DNA from: Candidatus Kapaibacterium sp.
Lineage (GTDB): Bacteria; Bacteroidota; Ignavibacteria; Kapaibacteriales; UBA4661
DNA: 64,000 nucleotides
Assembly (NCBI GenBank): GCA_025455065.1
Contig: JALONG010000035.1
Span: forward strand, 1 to 64,000
Direction of reading: 5' to 3'
Every line of letters begins with the position of its first letter. The first letter of the stretch is position 1. The notes beneath the pieces are model-generated. The model ran no database searches, was not told the origin of the DNA, and worked only from the letters and a program-made list of their open reading frames with translations. Positions 14,248-20,416 of the stretch are shown here, one piece after another. The translations under genes were made by a program, and so were the position numbers.

Positions 14248-14322
14248 GGGCGGTTAGCTCAGCTGGTTCAGAGCGCCTGCCTTACAAGCAGGATGTCGGG
14301 GGTTCAAATCCCTCACTGCCCA
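14248..14322 (+). tRNA. tRNA-Val (anticodon UAC)
   Basis: The sequence folds as a normal cloverleaf: acceptor GGGCGGT (14248-14254) pairs with ACTGCCC (14315-14321), with an A discriminator. The anticodon loop CTTACAA sits between CCTGC and GCAGG, giving anticodon TAC. The T-loop GGTTCAAAT is canonical. CCA is not encoded. Confidence 0.96.
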
Positions 14323-14326
14323 CAAA

Positions 14327-14352
14327 AGACCCCGCTTTCGGGGCTTTTTTTT
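14327..14352 (+). terminator. Terminator after tRNA-Val
   Basis: CCCCG and CGGGG flank a short CTTT-like loop (14330-14343), followed by eight T. It lies between the two tRNA genes. Confidence 0.8.
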
Positions 14353-14382
14353 CGACAAAAAGTCTGTTGCCGAATCCTTGAC

Positions 14383-14467
14383 GCAGAAGTGGCGGAACCG
14401 GCAGACGCGCTGGACTCAAAATCCAGTGGGCTTAACACCCGTGTGGGTTCGACTCCCACCTTCTGTA
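14383..14467 (+). tRNA. tRNA-Leu (anticodon CAA)
   Basis: This is an 85-nt class II tRNA with a long variable arm (TGGGCTTAACACCCGTG). The acceptor GCAGAAG (14383-14389) pairs with CTTCTGT (14460-14466). The anticodon loop CTCAAAA gives CAA, reading UUG codons. CCA is not encoded. The gene lies 47 bp upstream of the left attachment repeat of the integrative element. Confidence 0.96.
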
Positions 14468-14471
14468 CATA

Positions 14472-14513: not shown

Positions 14514-14538
14514 ATACCTAATCAATACCTAAACTTTC
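14514..14538. repeat. attL: Left attachment site (25-bp direct repeat)
   Basis: These 25 bases recur exactly at 48136-48160. The core is itself a near-tandem of ATACCTAATCA and ATACCTAAACT, ending in TTC. On the minus strand it supplies the last codons and the stop (TAG) of the YqaJ-like gene. Confidence 0.85.
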
Positions 14539-15104
14539 TCCATCGCTCCTCCTTTTTCGCCTATTTTCTCCCAAAACGTCTGCGCCGTGTCCCGCATCCG
14601 CTCAATGAGTTCTTCATCACGCACAATCGGCTGCACGTGCAATTTCCAGCCCTTTTCCATCGCACAGACATACCCAAACTTCAGCCCTAACACAAACAAG
14701 TACCACTGCACTTGATACGCTGCCATTGTCCGCTTTTCTCTCGACCAATACTCGCAGTTTTTGATTTCCAAAATGGCGTGAGGTTTGCCCTCGGTAACAC
14801 ACAACAATCGGTCAGGCGTTGCGAGAAAGATTTCATCGCGTTTGTAGAGCCGTTTCGGGTTTATCACCGAAAATTCGGGCTTGAGACATCGAAACTCGCG
14901 CACGATAAACGGTTCAATCCGTTTGCCGATGCGCATTTGTTCGGTTTCGGGAACGTCGTAGTTTTCTACTTTCGAGCGCCGTACATCTTCTGCGGTGGCG
15001 AATGGGCTTACGCCCATGAGCGCAGCAATATCACTGCCTCCGATGCCGCTTCGTCTCTGTTCTCGCCATTTTTTGAGTGAGGTGATTTTGAGTTCTTCGA
15101 GCAT
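14529..15104 (-). CDS. YqaJ-type viral recombinase / lambda-type exonuclease
   Basis: This 191-residue protein belongs to the PD-(D/E)XK nucleases of the YqaJ/lambda exonuclease group, which resect double-stranded DNA ends for phage recombination. It shows the family start RRSGIGGSDIAALMGVSPF (18-36), Glu64 (GKRIEP), Asp98 (ATPDRLL) and the E-x-K pair at Glu113/Lys115. The start is set at MLEELKITS; the longer upstream frame is not protein-like. The ssDNA-binding-like gene further upstream could be its partner. Its stop codon lies inside the attachment core. Confidence 0.85.
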   Translation of the reverse strand: MLEELKITSLKKWREQRRSGIGGSDIAALMGVSPFATAEDVRRSKVENYDVPETEQMRIGKRIEPFIVREFRCLKPEFSVINPKRLYKRDEIFLATPDRLLCVTEGKPHAILEIKNCEYWSREKRTMAAYQVQWYLFVLGLKFGYVCAMEKGWKLHVQPIVRDEELIERMRDTAQTFWEKIGEKGGAMEKV

Positions 15105-15112
15105 AAATTTTG

Positions 15113-15178
15113 AAGGGATAAGGGATGAAGGCGAAGGGATGAGGGCAAGAGATACTGACTTTTCAGCCCTTATCCCTT
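15113..15178. other. Inverted repeat between the YqaJ-like and J-domain genes
   Basis: AAGGGATAAGGG (15113-15124) is the exact reverse complement of CCCTTATCCCTT (15167-15178). The loop is long and itself rich in GGGAT repeats. It may be an attenuator or an RNA-processing site in the leftward transcript. Confidence 0.45.
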
Positions 15179-15216
15179 TGCCCCTGAGCGTTGCGCTCAG
15201 TCCTTCTGCCCTTGAA

Positions 15217-15681
15217 TTAGTGTAGCACTCGTGCAGCAAAATTAGGCGAGACTTTTTCGCTGCCGTATTTGCTGCGAATGTCGTTGATGTCCTGCGCCTC
15301 GCCGCGTGTGCGGGTTGCATACTCCAATGCACGATAAAACCAAAGTTTCTTCACGGGTGCAAAACAAAACCCTTCGCGTTTGAGTGCTTCGCGGTGCGCG
15401 TAGGTGTTGCCACTTACCCACAGCCATTTGCCAATGATTTCGAGTTCCAAGCCCTCCAAGTGTGCAATCGCCGCAATTTTATCGCGGTATAGTAACTCAC
15501 TCGTTTCGGCATCGGTCGAAAAATTAGCGTTCATCACCCGTTTGAGCATTTGGGCATATTCGGCGTTGAGTGCTTGCATTGCTTCGGTACTGCCGCCGCA
15601 ATCGGGATGAAGTTCCTTACACAGCGCATGGTAACGCCGCTTGAGGTCGTCGAGTGTGTGAATATGTTCAAAGTAGTGCAT
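15217..15681 (-). CDS. J-domain protein of phage type
   Basis: This 154-residue protein starts with a short J domain whose HPD motif is at 25-27 (LHPDCGGS), so it should stimulate a DnaK-type chaperone. Its C-terminal half (about 85-130) is a small domain with WLWVSGNTY and REGFCFAPVKKLWFYR, a fusion often seen in phage genomes. A strong Shine-Dalgarno (AAAGGAG) precedes the ATG at 15681 and decides the start over an open stretch 17 codons upstream. It probably helps replication or assembly of the element. Confidence 0.8.
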   Translation of the reverse strand: MHYFEHIHTLDDLKRRYHALCKELHPDCGGSTEAMQALNAEYAQMLKRVMNANFSTDAETSELLYRDKIAAIAHLEGLELEIIGKWLWVSGNTYAHREALKREGFCFAPVKKLWFYRALEYATRTRGEAQDINDIRSKYGSEKVSPNFAARVLH

Positions 15682-15759: not shown

Positions 15760-16299
15760 TTAGTAAAGCGGTTTAACTTCGTAAATTTTTGCTTTACCAA
15801 TTTCTACTTTGATGCTTTCGGTGTACGTGATTTCCACAGGCGTACCGCTTGGAATGTGTTCAAACTGTTTGCGCAGCGTAACACCTGCGTTTATCCACAC
15901 CTGTTTTTCATTGTCAATCCACGTAACGCCGATAATTTCTTTGCGCTCGTCGCCTTTGCCTTTGACAATCGTTTTTTCACCCAAATAGACACCGCGCACG
16001 GTCTCACCTTCGGTGGTAAACTCTTTGTACTTGGCATTCATCGAAACGCCGCTCTGCATTGTCTCCAAGCGGGCAAGTGCTTCTTCCATCGCAAGCAGTT
16101 TTTCGGCAGGAATCATCACGGGCGCGGTTGCAAGTTCGGTTTCTTTCTCCACACCGAGAGAATCCACACTGTTCAAAGGCTTTTCTACGCTGGTTTCCAG
16201 CACTTCGCCTGTTGAAGTGTTTACAAGCGTATCATTAACAAGGGCGGTTTCTTCAGAAACAACCGTTTCTTTTGCGAGTTTTTGAGTTTTGGTATTCAT
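15760..16299 (-). CDS. Phage-type protein with C-terminal OB-like domain, possible ssDNA-binding protein
   Basis: The product has 179 residues from MNTKTQKLA; AAGGA lies at the right distance upstream. The first 100 residues are acidic and low in complexity. The last 80 (VRGVYLGEKTIV...GVTWI...GVTLRKQFEHIPSGTPVEITYTE) resemble small beta-barrel phage proteins that are usually encoded beside recombinases. By position, next to a YqaJ-type nuclease, a ssDNA-binding or annealing role is reasonable, but no diagnostic residue proves it. Confidence 0.6.
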   Translation of the reverse strand: MNTKTQKLAKETVVSEETALVNDTLVNTSTGEVLETSVEKPLNSVDSLGVEKETELATAPVMIPAEKLLAMEEALARLETMQSGVSMNAKYKEFTTEGETVRGVYLGEKTIVKGKGDERKEIIGVTWIDNEKQVWINAGVTLRKQFEHIPSGTPVEITYTESIKVEIGKAKIYEVKPLY

Positions 16300-17027: not shown

Positions 17028-17522
17028 TTATGCGGGTAAGGTAATAGCAAGCGACGAACTCGTTTCGGAAATCACAGGCGGCAACACATCCACGCCGTTT
17101 TCTTGAATCGGTGTAACGAGTTTTTTCAAAAACTCTTCTCGTGCTTTGAGTGCTGCCTTTGTGCTGTCAAGCTGCGACTGAAGCTGACGATGCACCGCAT
17201 CACGCGAAAAATCCCACACATTTTCTAAGCGTACCGAAAACTTGACACCTGTTTCGGTCGCATGAATACCATTTGCCCGTTGTGCTTCCGCGTGAGCAAG
17301 CGCACCCTGCATGATAGCGGCTTTGAGTGCTTTCAAATACTCCTCTGCGGCTTTGATAGCCACAAGCATCACAAACTTATCGGCATTGGTTCGCATGAAT
17401 CCCGCATAATTGCTTGCGAGTTTGGCAAGAGCGGACTTATTGAGCGGAATAGAGCGCAGAGGCAGAAGTTCGGTAACTTTTGCGCTTTTGCGACGTGCAT
17501 CGGCTTTAGGAATAGTGTTCAT
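17028..17522 (-). CDS. Helical hypothetical protein of the element
   Basis: This 164-residue product starts at MNTIPKADAR with AAAGGAAA upstream. The N-terminus is basic, the middle is Ala/Lys-rich helix (IKAAEEYLKALKAAIMQGALAHAEAQRA), and a coiled-coil-like segment (QLQSQLDSTKAALKAREEFLKKL) lies near residues 115-138. It resembles small DNA-associated phage proteins by composition only. It is the first gene of the leftward module and its promoter should lie next to the T-poor region. Confidence 0.6.
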   Translation of the reverse strand: MNTIPKADARRKSAKVTELLPLRSIPLNKSALAKLASNYAGFMRTNADKFVMLVAIKAAEEYLKALKAAIMQGALAHAEAQRANGIHATETGVKFSVRLENVWDFSRDAVHRQLQSQLDSTKAALKAREEFLKKLVTPIQENGVDVLPPVISETSSSLAITLPA

Positions 17523-17778
17523 AACGTTTCCTTTCGGAAAAACATGAGAAAAATGGTTTATACCTCTCTCGCACCGTTGGGGCTGTACAACGTAAGCACT
17601 TGAACAAAAGAAGCGACAAGTTTTCAAAGAACACAAATAGCGAGAGCAAGAACATCATTTGCCACTACCGAGCGGAAAGCGCACGGCGCGGCGAGGGGCT
17701 GCGCTTTGCGCCACGCGGGGGCGAAACGAGCGAGGCAGGAGCGAGAGTAGTCCCCCAAGCGATTAGCAAACCGCCGCT
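17523..17778. other. GC-rich non-coding region beside the T-poor block
   Basis: The first 100 bp hold the start region of the leftward module. From about 17665 to 17760 the DNA is a GC-rich run with imperfect inverted repeats around GCGCTTTGCGCC. A similar GC-rich stretch lies at about 19560-19640. Such runs occur near mobilisation regions, but no nic site is identifiable. Confidence 0.4.
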
Positions 17779-18736
17779 AAAACAGCGACGGCGCAGGAGA
17801 CAGCAACCACCACCCCGAACCAACCGAGGAAAAACCCCACGAAGGAACACCAAACGGCGCAAAGACCACCACAGGAACACCCAAACCAGCCGCAAACGCT
17901 GCCGAAGCCCACGAACCCGAACCCAAACCACGAAAGCACACCGACGACGACGAGGACGGCACAAGCCCCACAGGACAAGCCGCAGAGGGAAAAACCACAA
18001 AAACACCGCCCCCCGCACGAGACGACGCAGAGGCAACAAACCGCACCAACGCCACAGAGCGCAAGACCAAACGCCCCGCCCACGAGGAAGCAGCAAACGA
18101 AGCCGCCGAAAACACCGAACACCCGCAGACGGAAGCCCGCACGACCGAGTCCACACCCGACGCACAGCCAACACCAACCAACGCACGAGAGGAGACCGCA
18201 CCACACACAGCCGACACACAAGCCGGAACAACCGAGCGCGAACCGGAGAACCCCACCACACCCGCCCCGCCCACAAGGGACAGGACGGAAGCGGGAACGA
18301 GCGGACAAACCGAAGCCGAAGCAAGAGAAGAAAAAGTAGAAGCAACCACAGCGCACCCCCTACAAAACAGAAGAAGAAGAAACAGAACCACGACGGCGAG
18401 CCGCCGACAACAAGCCCAACCACGCGGCAGGAGCAAGAGCCGAACCAAAGGGAACAGCCACACCCGAAGGCAACACCGCAGGAACAGACACCGCCCACAA
18501 CGAACCAACACGGCGCACCACACAGAACAAGCCCACAAACCGCGCAGCACGAGAAGCAAACGCCCGCGCCGCGCCAAACGACGAGAACGAACACACCGCC
18601 ACAAAACCCGACACCGAGCGCGCCGACAAACGGAACGACACGGAAGAACAGCCACGACCAACCAACCACCCCGAAAGGGAAAAAACAGACGGCGCACGAA
18701 GGACACGCGCACCAAAGGGAAAAGAAGAAGAAAGCA
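17779..18736. other. T-desert: 958 nt with four T on the + strand
   Basis: Counting by eye, the only T residues are at 17900, 18150, 18337 and 18361. All other positions are A, C or G, so the minus strand is almost free of A. Stop and start codons need T (on +) or A (on -), so all six frames are nearly open by composition alone. T stays scarce but less extreme up to about 19080. No neighbouring gene shows anything like this. Confidence 0.95.
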
Positions 18737-18777
18737 TAAAAACACCTACAAAAAGAAGTGAAAGAAGAATGAACTGA
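17781..18777 (+). pseudogene. Candidate hydrophilic disordered coding sequence with a frame change at a C5 run
   Basis: Codons counted from 17823 put G at position one in 15 of 39 codons but at positions two and three in 4 and 3. From 18361 the next frame shows 19 of 40 against 7 and 4. This is a coding-like period, with the phase moving by one base near the CCCCC at 18356-18360. The implied product is about 330 residues of Ala, Glu, Thr, Pro, Asn, Arg, Lys and Gln with almost no hydrophobic residue, ending at TGA 18775-18777. No start codon exists: the frame follows a TAA at 17778-17780. It is either a broken gene, a gene read by frameshifting, or a mutational relic. A similarly composed frame resumes at 18928-19176. 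Confidence 0.35.
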
Positions 18778-19282
18778 ACACTACAAAGATACGAGAAAAC
18801 GCAAAGAAAAGCAAGAAAAAAAATACAAAAAGAAAAATAAAAAAATACGAAAACACTTGCACACAACCAGAAAAAAACGAACACACGCACTCCACATCCA
18901 CCGCACCACACACGAACAACAAATGCCATGCTGCCGCAGGCGAAGGCGTATGAGAGCAGCTCAAAAACAAGCATTTGCCAACAAGAAAAGGCAGCGAACA
19001 CGCCGATACATTATGCCGCGCCGCCCGACGCACAACAAGAGCAAGGCACGACGACCGAAAAAAATGCAAGGGCGGCTGCTTTGAGCCGCTCTGTATCACC
19101 CTTGCTTCTTGTTTCGGCGACGTGCTATTTTGTTCCTGCGGAGGGCGTGCCTTCCCGCCCGGATAGGGCAAAATAGTACAACAATGCCGATGATTTGGTA
19201 ATAGAAGATTTGTAGTGTATATTTGCCGATTCGGATGACAAAAATAATCGCTATTTATCACAGACAATCAAAGGCATTTTGT
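18778..19282. other. T-poor and A-rich stretch, then a nested inverted repeat upstream of the RHH/MobC-like gene
   Basis: 18778-18870 is very A-rich on +. 18900-19080 remains T-poor. At 19122-19136 and 19166-19179 lie arms GTGCTATTTTGTTCC and GGGCAAAATAGTAC, complementary apart from three mismatches, enclosing a second stem GGGCG/CGCCC (19143-19147 and 19156-19160). This could be a cruciform such as an oriT or a regulatory site. Convincing genes were not found. Confidence 0.5.
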
Positions 19283-19507
19283 ATGGCAAAATTAGGTCGG
19301 AAACCCCGCTCTGAAGATGGCTCGGCTCGTGTGATTACGGTCCGGCTTACCGAAGAAGAATATGCACGGTTAATGAAAGAATCCGAAGAGGCAGGCTTGG
19401 GCATTTCCCAACTCATGCGGGCGCGGTCATTAGAAACGCCCGACGCTATCAATCAAAAATATCGGGAATTGAAAGAGGCAGTTGCAATGGTCTTGGCAAA
19501 GTTTTGA
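19283..19507 (+). CDS. RHH-type DNA-binding protein, MobC-like
   Basis: This 74-residue protein starts at MAKLGRKPRSEDG. The segment VITVRLTEEEYARLMKESEEAGLGISQLMRARSL is the ribbon-helix-helix pattern seen in MobC-type relaxosome proteins and in small repressors. No relaxase follows, so a transcriptional role, perhaps on the nested inverted repeat just upstream, is as likely as mobilisation. It lies 168 bp before the caspase-like gene in the same direction. Confidence 0.6.
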   Translation: MAKLGRKPRSEDGSARVITVRLTEEEYARLMKESEEAGLGISQLMRARSLETPDAINQKYRELKEAVAMVLAKF

Positions 19508-19675
19508 GAATATGCTTTAAACGAAATTGTTTTGGTACTCATCTAATCTGTTCACTGCCGAGGAGAGCGCAGCGAAGGACGCGGAGCAGCCGCGCCCGTA
19601 GTTTGCGCACCGACGAGGCAGATTGTCGCGTGTGTCATCTCCACCATTATGTTATTCTCAAAACATCAAAAGTCT

Positions 19676-20416
19676 ATGACAAGAAGAAAAGCGATTATCA
19701 TTACAAGCCCCGGTTCGTCTCCAAATCATCCCAAATATCTTGCCGGAGCATTGAAAGACGCTCATCACGTTCTGGCATATTTGCTCTCCCCTGTCGGTGG
19801 TACGTGGTTTCGGGAGGAAATTCGAGTTTTGCAAAATCCAAACGCCCAAGCCGTGCAACAAGAGTTTGATTGTACAAACGTAGATTTTCTTCTCGTCTAT
19901 TTTGCAGGACATGGTTTTCACGACGGAACTCAAACAATGCTTCAGATGAATGAGCATGAGGCACTTGGGGAAAGAACCTTATCGGGATGTGCGAAACGTC
20001 AATTAACCATCATTGATGCTTGCCGCACACAAGTTCGTGTCGGCGGCTTGAGCGACCCCATTACGGAATCACAAAAGCATCCGATAAGCATTGACGCAAA
20101 TGAAGCCCGCGCATGGTTTGACCGTGCAATCAATAACACCCCCAATGAATATCACACGCTCTACGCTTGTAGCGTCGGGCAAACAGCAAAAGAATCTGTG
20201 ATGGAGGGCGGATATTTTACGAATGCCCTCTTGCAATCGGCATGGAACTGGGCTTCCAATCAAAAAGGTGTCCTTGATGCGGGGAGCGCGACGTTTGCAG
20301 CATGGAAGATGATGCAGGCGCGTGGAATTACCCCCGCAATACAGCAGCCTGTTGTGTCAGTCAATCCAATATCCTTACCGTTTGCCGTACATCCAACAAT
20401 ACATGAATTTGCCTAA
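19676..20416 (+). CDS. Caspase-like peptidase (clan CD, C14 family)
   Basis: This 246-residue protein is a stand-alone caspase fold. It opens with RRKAIIITSPG and a KDAHHVLAYLL helix, has the catalytic His in YFAGHGF (His79) and the Cys in IDACR (Cys116), then a YACSVGQTAKE segment and a GYFTNALLQ segment typical of the p10-like half. A start nine codons earlier is possible. Bacterial caspases often act as effectors in abortive anti-phage systems. No sensor or gasdermin-like partner is visible next door; the small RHH gene is the only close neighbour. Confidence 0.82.
   Translation: MTRRKAIIITSPGSSPNHPKYLAGALKDAHHVLAYLLSPVGGTWFREEIRVLQNPNAQAVQQEFDCTNVDFLLVYFAGHGFHDGTQTMLQMNEHEALGERTLSGCAKRQLTIIDACRTQVRVGGLSDPITESQKHPISIDANEARAWFDRAINNTPNEYHTLYACSVGQTAKESVMEGGYFTNALLQSAWNWASNQKGVLDAGSATFAAWKMMQARGITPAIQQPVVSVNPISLPFAVHPTIHEFA

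Follow-up and report, generated by a model that had tools for sequence, protein, structure and literature searches.

The T-poor block of this locus is almost certainly the template side of two adjacent minus-strand genes of a mobile-element recombination module, encoding a DprA-like Rossmann protein (ORF2) and its conserved partner (ORF1), in which adenine has been excluded at all codon positions, synonymous ones included, and kept out by selection. The adenines that remain are the needed ones (start codon, stop with its ribosome-binding sequence, and one invariant Asp) and very few others.

Of the block's 958 nt, 372 are A, 356 C, 226 G, and 4 T, and the near-absence of T that had first been read from the letters is thereby borne out; four or fewer T's have a log10 P of -114 (about 1e-114) under the local composition, taken as the 25.5% T found outside 17779–18736. 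In a composition scan, proposed along with the original prediction, every other 958-nt segment of the window (the whole 64,000-nt stretch of DNA analyzed) that lies left of 17000 or right of 19500 had at least 155 of each base. On both strands of the 5.6-Mb genome, 535 of the 563 T-free 100-mers fall inside the block, making it nearly unique there; no tandem repeat was found within it, and the other T-free 100-mers of related genomes, among those visible outside the A-depleted family, are tandem or low-complexity repeats. Low T persists, more weakly, beyond the block to ~19080 (29/343). Loss of T through a basecalling or assembly fault, the artefact that had been named as an alternative, is ruled out by conserved homologues in independent assemblies and in complete plasmids. 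GC-rich, T-poor intergenic DNA of like character lies on both sides of the operon (17640–17770 and 19560–19640, plus strand), possibly a dispersed repeat.

Table 1. Features of the A-free operon and of the module around it (window coordinates).
Feature	Coordinates	Strand	Basis or remark
YqaJ-type exonuclease, same module	14529..15254	-	Pfam YqaJ E 3.6e-11
Module gene	15760..16299	-	Related ORF near A-free genes in Competibacteraceae; ORF cluster common to 11 loci including the window; phrog_33004
Next gene downstream, ordinary composition (27% A)	17028..17558	-	Control for substitution spectrum
Hairpin around ORF2 stop, then TTT; terminator-like	17766..17794	-	MFE -16.5 kcal/mol, z -2.4
ORF2, 190 aa, GTG to TAG, DprA-like Rossmann protein	17777..18349	-	AlphaFold2 model, structural matches
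T-free (plus) / A-free (minus) block	17779..18736		4 T/958 nt; edge T's are 18737 (A of minus-strand ATG) and 17778 (A of minus-strand TAG)
Putative coupling junction	18350..18362	-	ORF1 stop overlaps G-rich ribosome-binding-like sequence of ORF2: TAGGGGGTGCGCT, then GTG
ORF1, 125 aa, ATG to TAG	18360..18737	-	Codon-position substitutions, dN/dS, Competibacteraceae relatives
A-poor leader	18738..19080	-	8.5% A on minus strand; 77–88% identity in copies, conserved along with the genes
AGGTG, ribosome-binding-like sequence of ORF1	18743..18747	-	Kept in four copies; putative function
NikA-like ribbon-helix-helix mobilization protein, upstream of leader	19283..19507	+	Pfam NikA-like E 2.8e-8

Homologous T-free blocks, for which a search had been advised at the outset, were found at the DNA level in three congeners (G007, G001, and G006; 77–86% identity) among 41 genomes, with two copies in G007, one in G001, and one in G006 spread over two contigs; the copies are 75–94% identical to one another. 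The two G007 modules (L002 and L006, both on contig C28) lie at ~15.3 kb and 44.6 kb, ~29 kb apart, with ~77% block identity. Alignment of the copies displays hundreds of substitutions, hardly any of which touch a plus-strand T, and indels that are net multiples of three. Third-position substitutions track one minus-strand frame in 18363–18737 and another in 17781–18362 (51 of the 61 substitutions in the ORF1 start region, 18620–18737, are at third codon positions), and the resulting order of variability, third > first > second, agrees with coding on the minus strand but not with coding on the plus strand. The minus frames have dN/dS values of 0.11–0.24 (ORF1) and 0.18–0.43 (ORF2). A disordered protein encoded on the plus strand is ruled out by the same order of variability and by a TAA, conserved in five copies, that closes the plus frame at the block edge. 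Given the codon-position pattern, the dN/dS values, and the fold described below, the minus strand codes, leaving unsupported the earlier suggestion that an unpaired plus-strand RNA is under selection. Nor is the block free of start and stop codons in all six frames, as had been claimed: the minus strand is rich in GTG and TTG, the GTG at 18349 is the likely ORF2 start, and the TAG at 18362–18360 is an internal stop. One copy (L003, from G001) carries an 18-nt in-frame insertion near window position 18083 (CCGCCATCGTTACGATGG), partly palindromic, that adds several T's.

Adenine is avoided in what the genes contain and in how they change. A takes part in only 9 of the 446 substitutions seen across ORF1 and ORF2, versus 149 of 330 in the next gene downstream (17031–17558; three pairwise comparisons, same strains). 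The two genes hold 0.5–0.7% A (ORF2, 0.7%): ORF1 uses the base twice only, in its start and stop codons, and ORF2 four times, once each in ACT, GAC (the Asp that is invariant in the family), GCA, and the stop. A single fourfold-degenerate codon ends in A across the pair, against 15–38% in most codon boxes of the neighbors. Restriction to A-free codons leaves proteins composed almost entirely of F, L, V, S, P, A, G, R, C, and W, and GTG and GCG are among the commonest codons (26 each). A purely protein-level cause is rejected, as it would leave the depletion at synonymous sites unexplained. The original notion of a gene under extreme codon and amino-acid selection is thus supported, in the form of two genes in which the base A itself is selected against, synonymous sites included; among the causes proposed at that stage, it is the only one with support. 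C is also scarce at ORF1/ORF2 third positions (Ala GCC 4% versus 23% in neighbors), a poverty that is not apparent in the Contendobacter copies.

In each of the five copies, the ORF1 stop falls within G-rich sequence (TAGGGGG or TGAGGGG) lying a few nucleotides 5′ of the ORF2 GTG, which suggests that the two genes are probably translationally coupled, and viral contig L060 has the same ORF1/ORF2 junction. We considered a programmed +1 frameshift that would fuse ORF1 and ORF2, in keeping with the conserved ORF1 stop and the +1 shift of frame at that stop (18350–18362, minus strand), but a coupled GTG start after a G-rich ribosome-binding sequence is the simpler account. Two copies carry TTTTTT at the site of the ORF2-stop hairpin; the hairpin itself is absent from those listed by a consensus scan.

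The AlphaFold2 model of ORF2 (built with 23 relatives) is a confidently predicted alpha/beta fold (pLDDT 87.3, pTM 0.84) whose top six VIA-align matches are all DprA structures (Z 9.8–10.3, rmsd 2.6–2.9 Å, 120–123 residues), followed by the DprA-like ShosA (PDB 8zva, Z 9.2) and then ThsA; Foldseek alone returned no match under E 0.001 for the model. Profile scores point weakly the same way: against Pfam DNA_processg_A (DprA/Smf, which loads RecA on ssDNA), the best relative reaches 20.7 bits (gathering cut-off 29.6), and ORF2 of the window has no sequence match. The family shares with DprA/Smf the Rossmann fold, the motifs G-S/T-R, GxAxG[VI]D, and GSG[ST], and a recombination context, but differs in falling below the Pfam cut-off, in its length (about 140–195 aa), in the QLSLF or similar sequence at which many members end, in its location on plasmids and phage-like or integrated elements, and in the nearly A-free coding strand of most members. 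We describe ORF2 as having a DprA-like fold that may work like DprA, without classing it as a DprA; it would bind single-stranded DNA and serve the element by helping a strand-annealing or RecA-type protein to load. The QLSLF-type C-terminus presumably resembles a sliding-clamp binding peptide. ShosA is likewise encoded beside a second gene, although the ShosTA-type pair joins a DprA-like antitoxin to an adjacent toxin, whereas ORF1 has no recognized toxin relation; we know of no compositional oddity in ShosA. ORF1 matched no family in profile searches, and its model was poor (pLDDT 60) and unfit for structure search.

Partner genes across the family encode annealing proteins (Rad52_Rad22, ERF, and the Sak4-like AAA_24) and exonucleases (YqaJ and DUF3799, PD-D/E-XK), and in Synechococcus an ArdC-type anti-restriction gene stands beside the family gene. 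In the window, tRNA-Val and tRNA-Leu (14248–14468, plus strand) lie at the far end of the YqaJ module, with housekeeping genes beyond; this site is a possible integration site of the element. Near the A-free operon, but on the opposite strand, is a caspase-domain gene (Peptidase_C14, 19652–20413, plus strand, Pfam E 3.3e-12).

Across 84,980 species genomes, pattern scanning recovered 23 loci, and viral contigs yielded five more (the E-values of both scans cover candidate stretches only). The family ranges over Kapabacteria, Cyanobacteria, Pseudomonadota, Thermodesulfobacteriota, Bacteroidota, and viral contigs (taxon names as in public records), and is carried by Synechococcus elongatus plasmids, where it is annotated as a hypothetical protein. 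In profile searches it was present in 14/386 genomes of the cyanobacterial phylum, 8/295 of the phylum of the Fluviicola genome (Bacteroidota), 2/274 of the class of the Contendobacter genome, and 2/245 of the window's own class. A tblastn search with ORF2 against plasmids and phages gave no match, probably through low-complexity masking; pattern scans and profiles succeeded. ORF1 has relatives in Competibacteraceae (HMM E about 1e-6), there too upstream of ORF2; a scan of viral contigs with ORF1 found nothing.

Coding-strand A is below 6% (0.2–6%) in 39 of the 50 family sequences, with surroundings at about 14–39%; six more have 10–18%. Five relatives with 23–32% A form one well-supported clade opposite all depleted members, in an unrooted tree with unequal composition and some unsure long branches; judged from this arrangement, the depletion is a property of a single branch and likely had a single origin. 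Persistence over such deep divergence implies that selection maintains the trait. Each of five Competibacteraceae-type loci has a lone A in ORF1, at its stop, and just two in ORF2, at the invariant Asp and at its stop; leaders there hold 0.6–4% A versus 16–28% further upstream, and the 3′ UTRs have none in 228 nt, with 26–38% right after the terminator, such that A-poverty extends from leader to terminator and the trait follows the transcript. Single-gene members have 28% A (22–28%) in the upstream 30 nt, 11% in the first 30 coding bases, and 2–5% in the interior, and Nostoc leaders are A-rich. One locus (L041) contains ~330 extra near-A-free bases between ORF1 and ORF2 (811–1140), ending in TAG, which are perhaps a third A-free gene.

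Since causes at the level of mutation, tRNA, protein, or DNA strand fit poorly, selection on the message remains, and it is selection on the mRNA that fits best. Our leading guess, offered tentatively, is an RNase-proof message: without A, it would escape RNases whose sites contain or prefer that base (e.g., many mRNA interferases of toxin–antitoxin and abortive systems), so that the ORF1–ORF2 pair would still be produced while other messages are cut. Toxin RNases often need A in their site (ACA, UAC, UAH, UACAU, AAAAA; tabulated in PMC5408214). Messages lacking ACA remain translatable under MazF (PMC5408214) and resemble the A-free genes in that a nuclease's recognition sequence is missing with translatability kept; they differ in lacking a single triplet, whether designed out or absent by chance, whereas the A-free genes exclude a whole base, naturally and over deep divergence, with no nuclease known. 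HigB prefers A in the codon (PMC9098466), but is rejected as sole cause because its preference is strongest at codon position 3, whereas all positions avoid A here. Several observations count against an RNase-proof message: the exonuclease and annealing genes of the same elements are not A-depleted, contrary to what a general need for RNase survival predicts; several toxins cut the A-free sites UCCUU, UUCCU, UUU, and GUUGC (PMC5408214); and the window's leader retains 8.5% A. Toxin neighbors are also inconsistent, with a RelE-type pair near the family gene of one Synechococcus plasmid and no toxin consistently adjacent to the A-free genes across loci. Put more generally, it is conceivable, though we would not call it probable, that an undescribed adenine-directed activity, one that destroys RNA and is encountered by the operon's mRNA or by its product, underlies the operon's exclusion of one RNA base in several phyla.

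The second branch of that proposal is self-immunity, which we regard as unlikely but worth weighing: the ORF1–ORF2 pair would itself be directed against adenine in RNA or single-stranded DNA (as nuclease, glycosidase, or deaminase), such that its own message must be A-free. This would be family-bound and require no particular host, in agreement with a trait that tracks one gene family across phyla while the neighbors are normal. Some SLOG-type Rossmann proteins are enzymes with adenine nucleotides as substrates, and the invariant Asp together with the RS, CP, and GSG[ST]W motifs could build an active site. Relatives with the same motifs (L086 and L088–L091) nevertheless have normal A, and DprA, which the fold matches, binds DNA and lacks such activity. 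The RNase reading accounts for protection of the message, and self-immunity for only one family being affected.

Mutation pressure, through an A-specific mutator or editing with reverse transcription that strips A from the transcribed non-template strand, is improbable. The Competibacteraceae A-free zone, spanning nearly leader to terminator, and the essential nature of the remaining A's (Asp, start, and stop) are what it would produce, but the leaders are not emptied at least as much as the synonymous sites: in the window the leader exceeds the 0.5–0.7% of the genes, opposite to the prediction, and the single-gene members jump to 22–28% just upstream. The specific form raised in the original prediction, A-to-G change on the minus strand, is poorly supported as well, because in several relatives the lost A's have become G, T, and C alike, and not mainly G. 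Diversity-generating retroelements also single out adenine; their target is a short variable repeat, and they depend on a template repeat and a reverse transcriptase, whereas here whole conserved genes are depleted, and the few neighbors scanned included no reverse transcriptase.

Two further causes have little to recommend them. At the tRNA level, A-free codons need no anticodon U, and translation might outlast cleavage of U-containing anticodons; there is a precedent in LshCas13a, which cuts tRNAs with uridine-rich anticodons and halts translation (PMC11042736), and A is avoided at all three codon positions. The tRNAs recovered from the host (a list that may be incomplete) nonetheless include Val-UAC and Val-GAC without Val-CAC or Ala-CGC, so that the heavy use of GTG and GCG would still call on U34 tRNAs, and at some loci leaders and 3′ UTRs are depleted too. 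At the DNA level, a T-free strand, which has no palindromic site with A or T, might aid transfer, replication, or restriction escape of an element carrying mobilization and anti-restriction genes close by; against this slim prospect, depletion tracks reading frames and transcripts rather than DNA blocks, G/C-only sites remain, and the flanking element DNA is ordinary. Least plausible is transcription without ATP, i.e., a message made from GTP, CTP, and UTP during ATP depletion, for although whole Competibacteraceae transcripts are nearly A-free, tRNA charging requires ATP regardless, Kapabacteria leaders contain A, and those of Nostoc are A-rich.

The depletion of A from this gene family in mobile elements of several phyla appears to be unexplained so far; literature searches of partial coverage found nothing on adenine-free genes, in agreement with the initial statement that no element of this kind had been described. 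Base composition is usually a soft, genome-wide tendency, but here one base is almost forbidden in one family, against the surrounding genome, and the protein, still predicted to fold (pLDDT 87), makes do with about ten amino acids and a single invariant Asp. Something in very different hosts must penalize A in these messages. Finding that agent would bring to light either a novel adenine-directed activity, whether exerted by the pair or by a host defense, or a general way for mobile elements to keep one message alive during RNA destruction, and would offer a tool for keeping genes expressed while other mRNA degrades.
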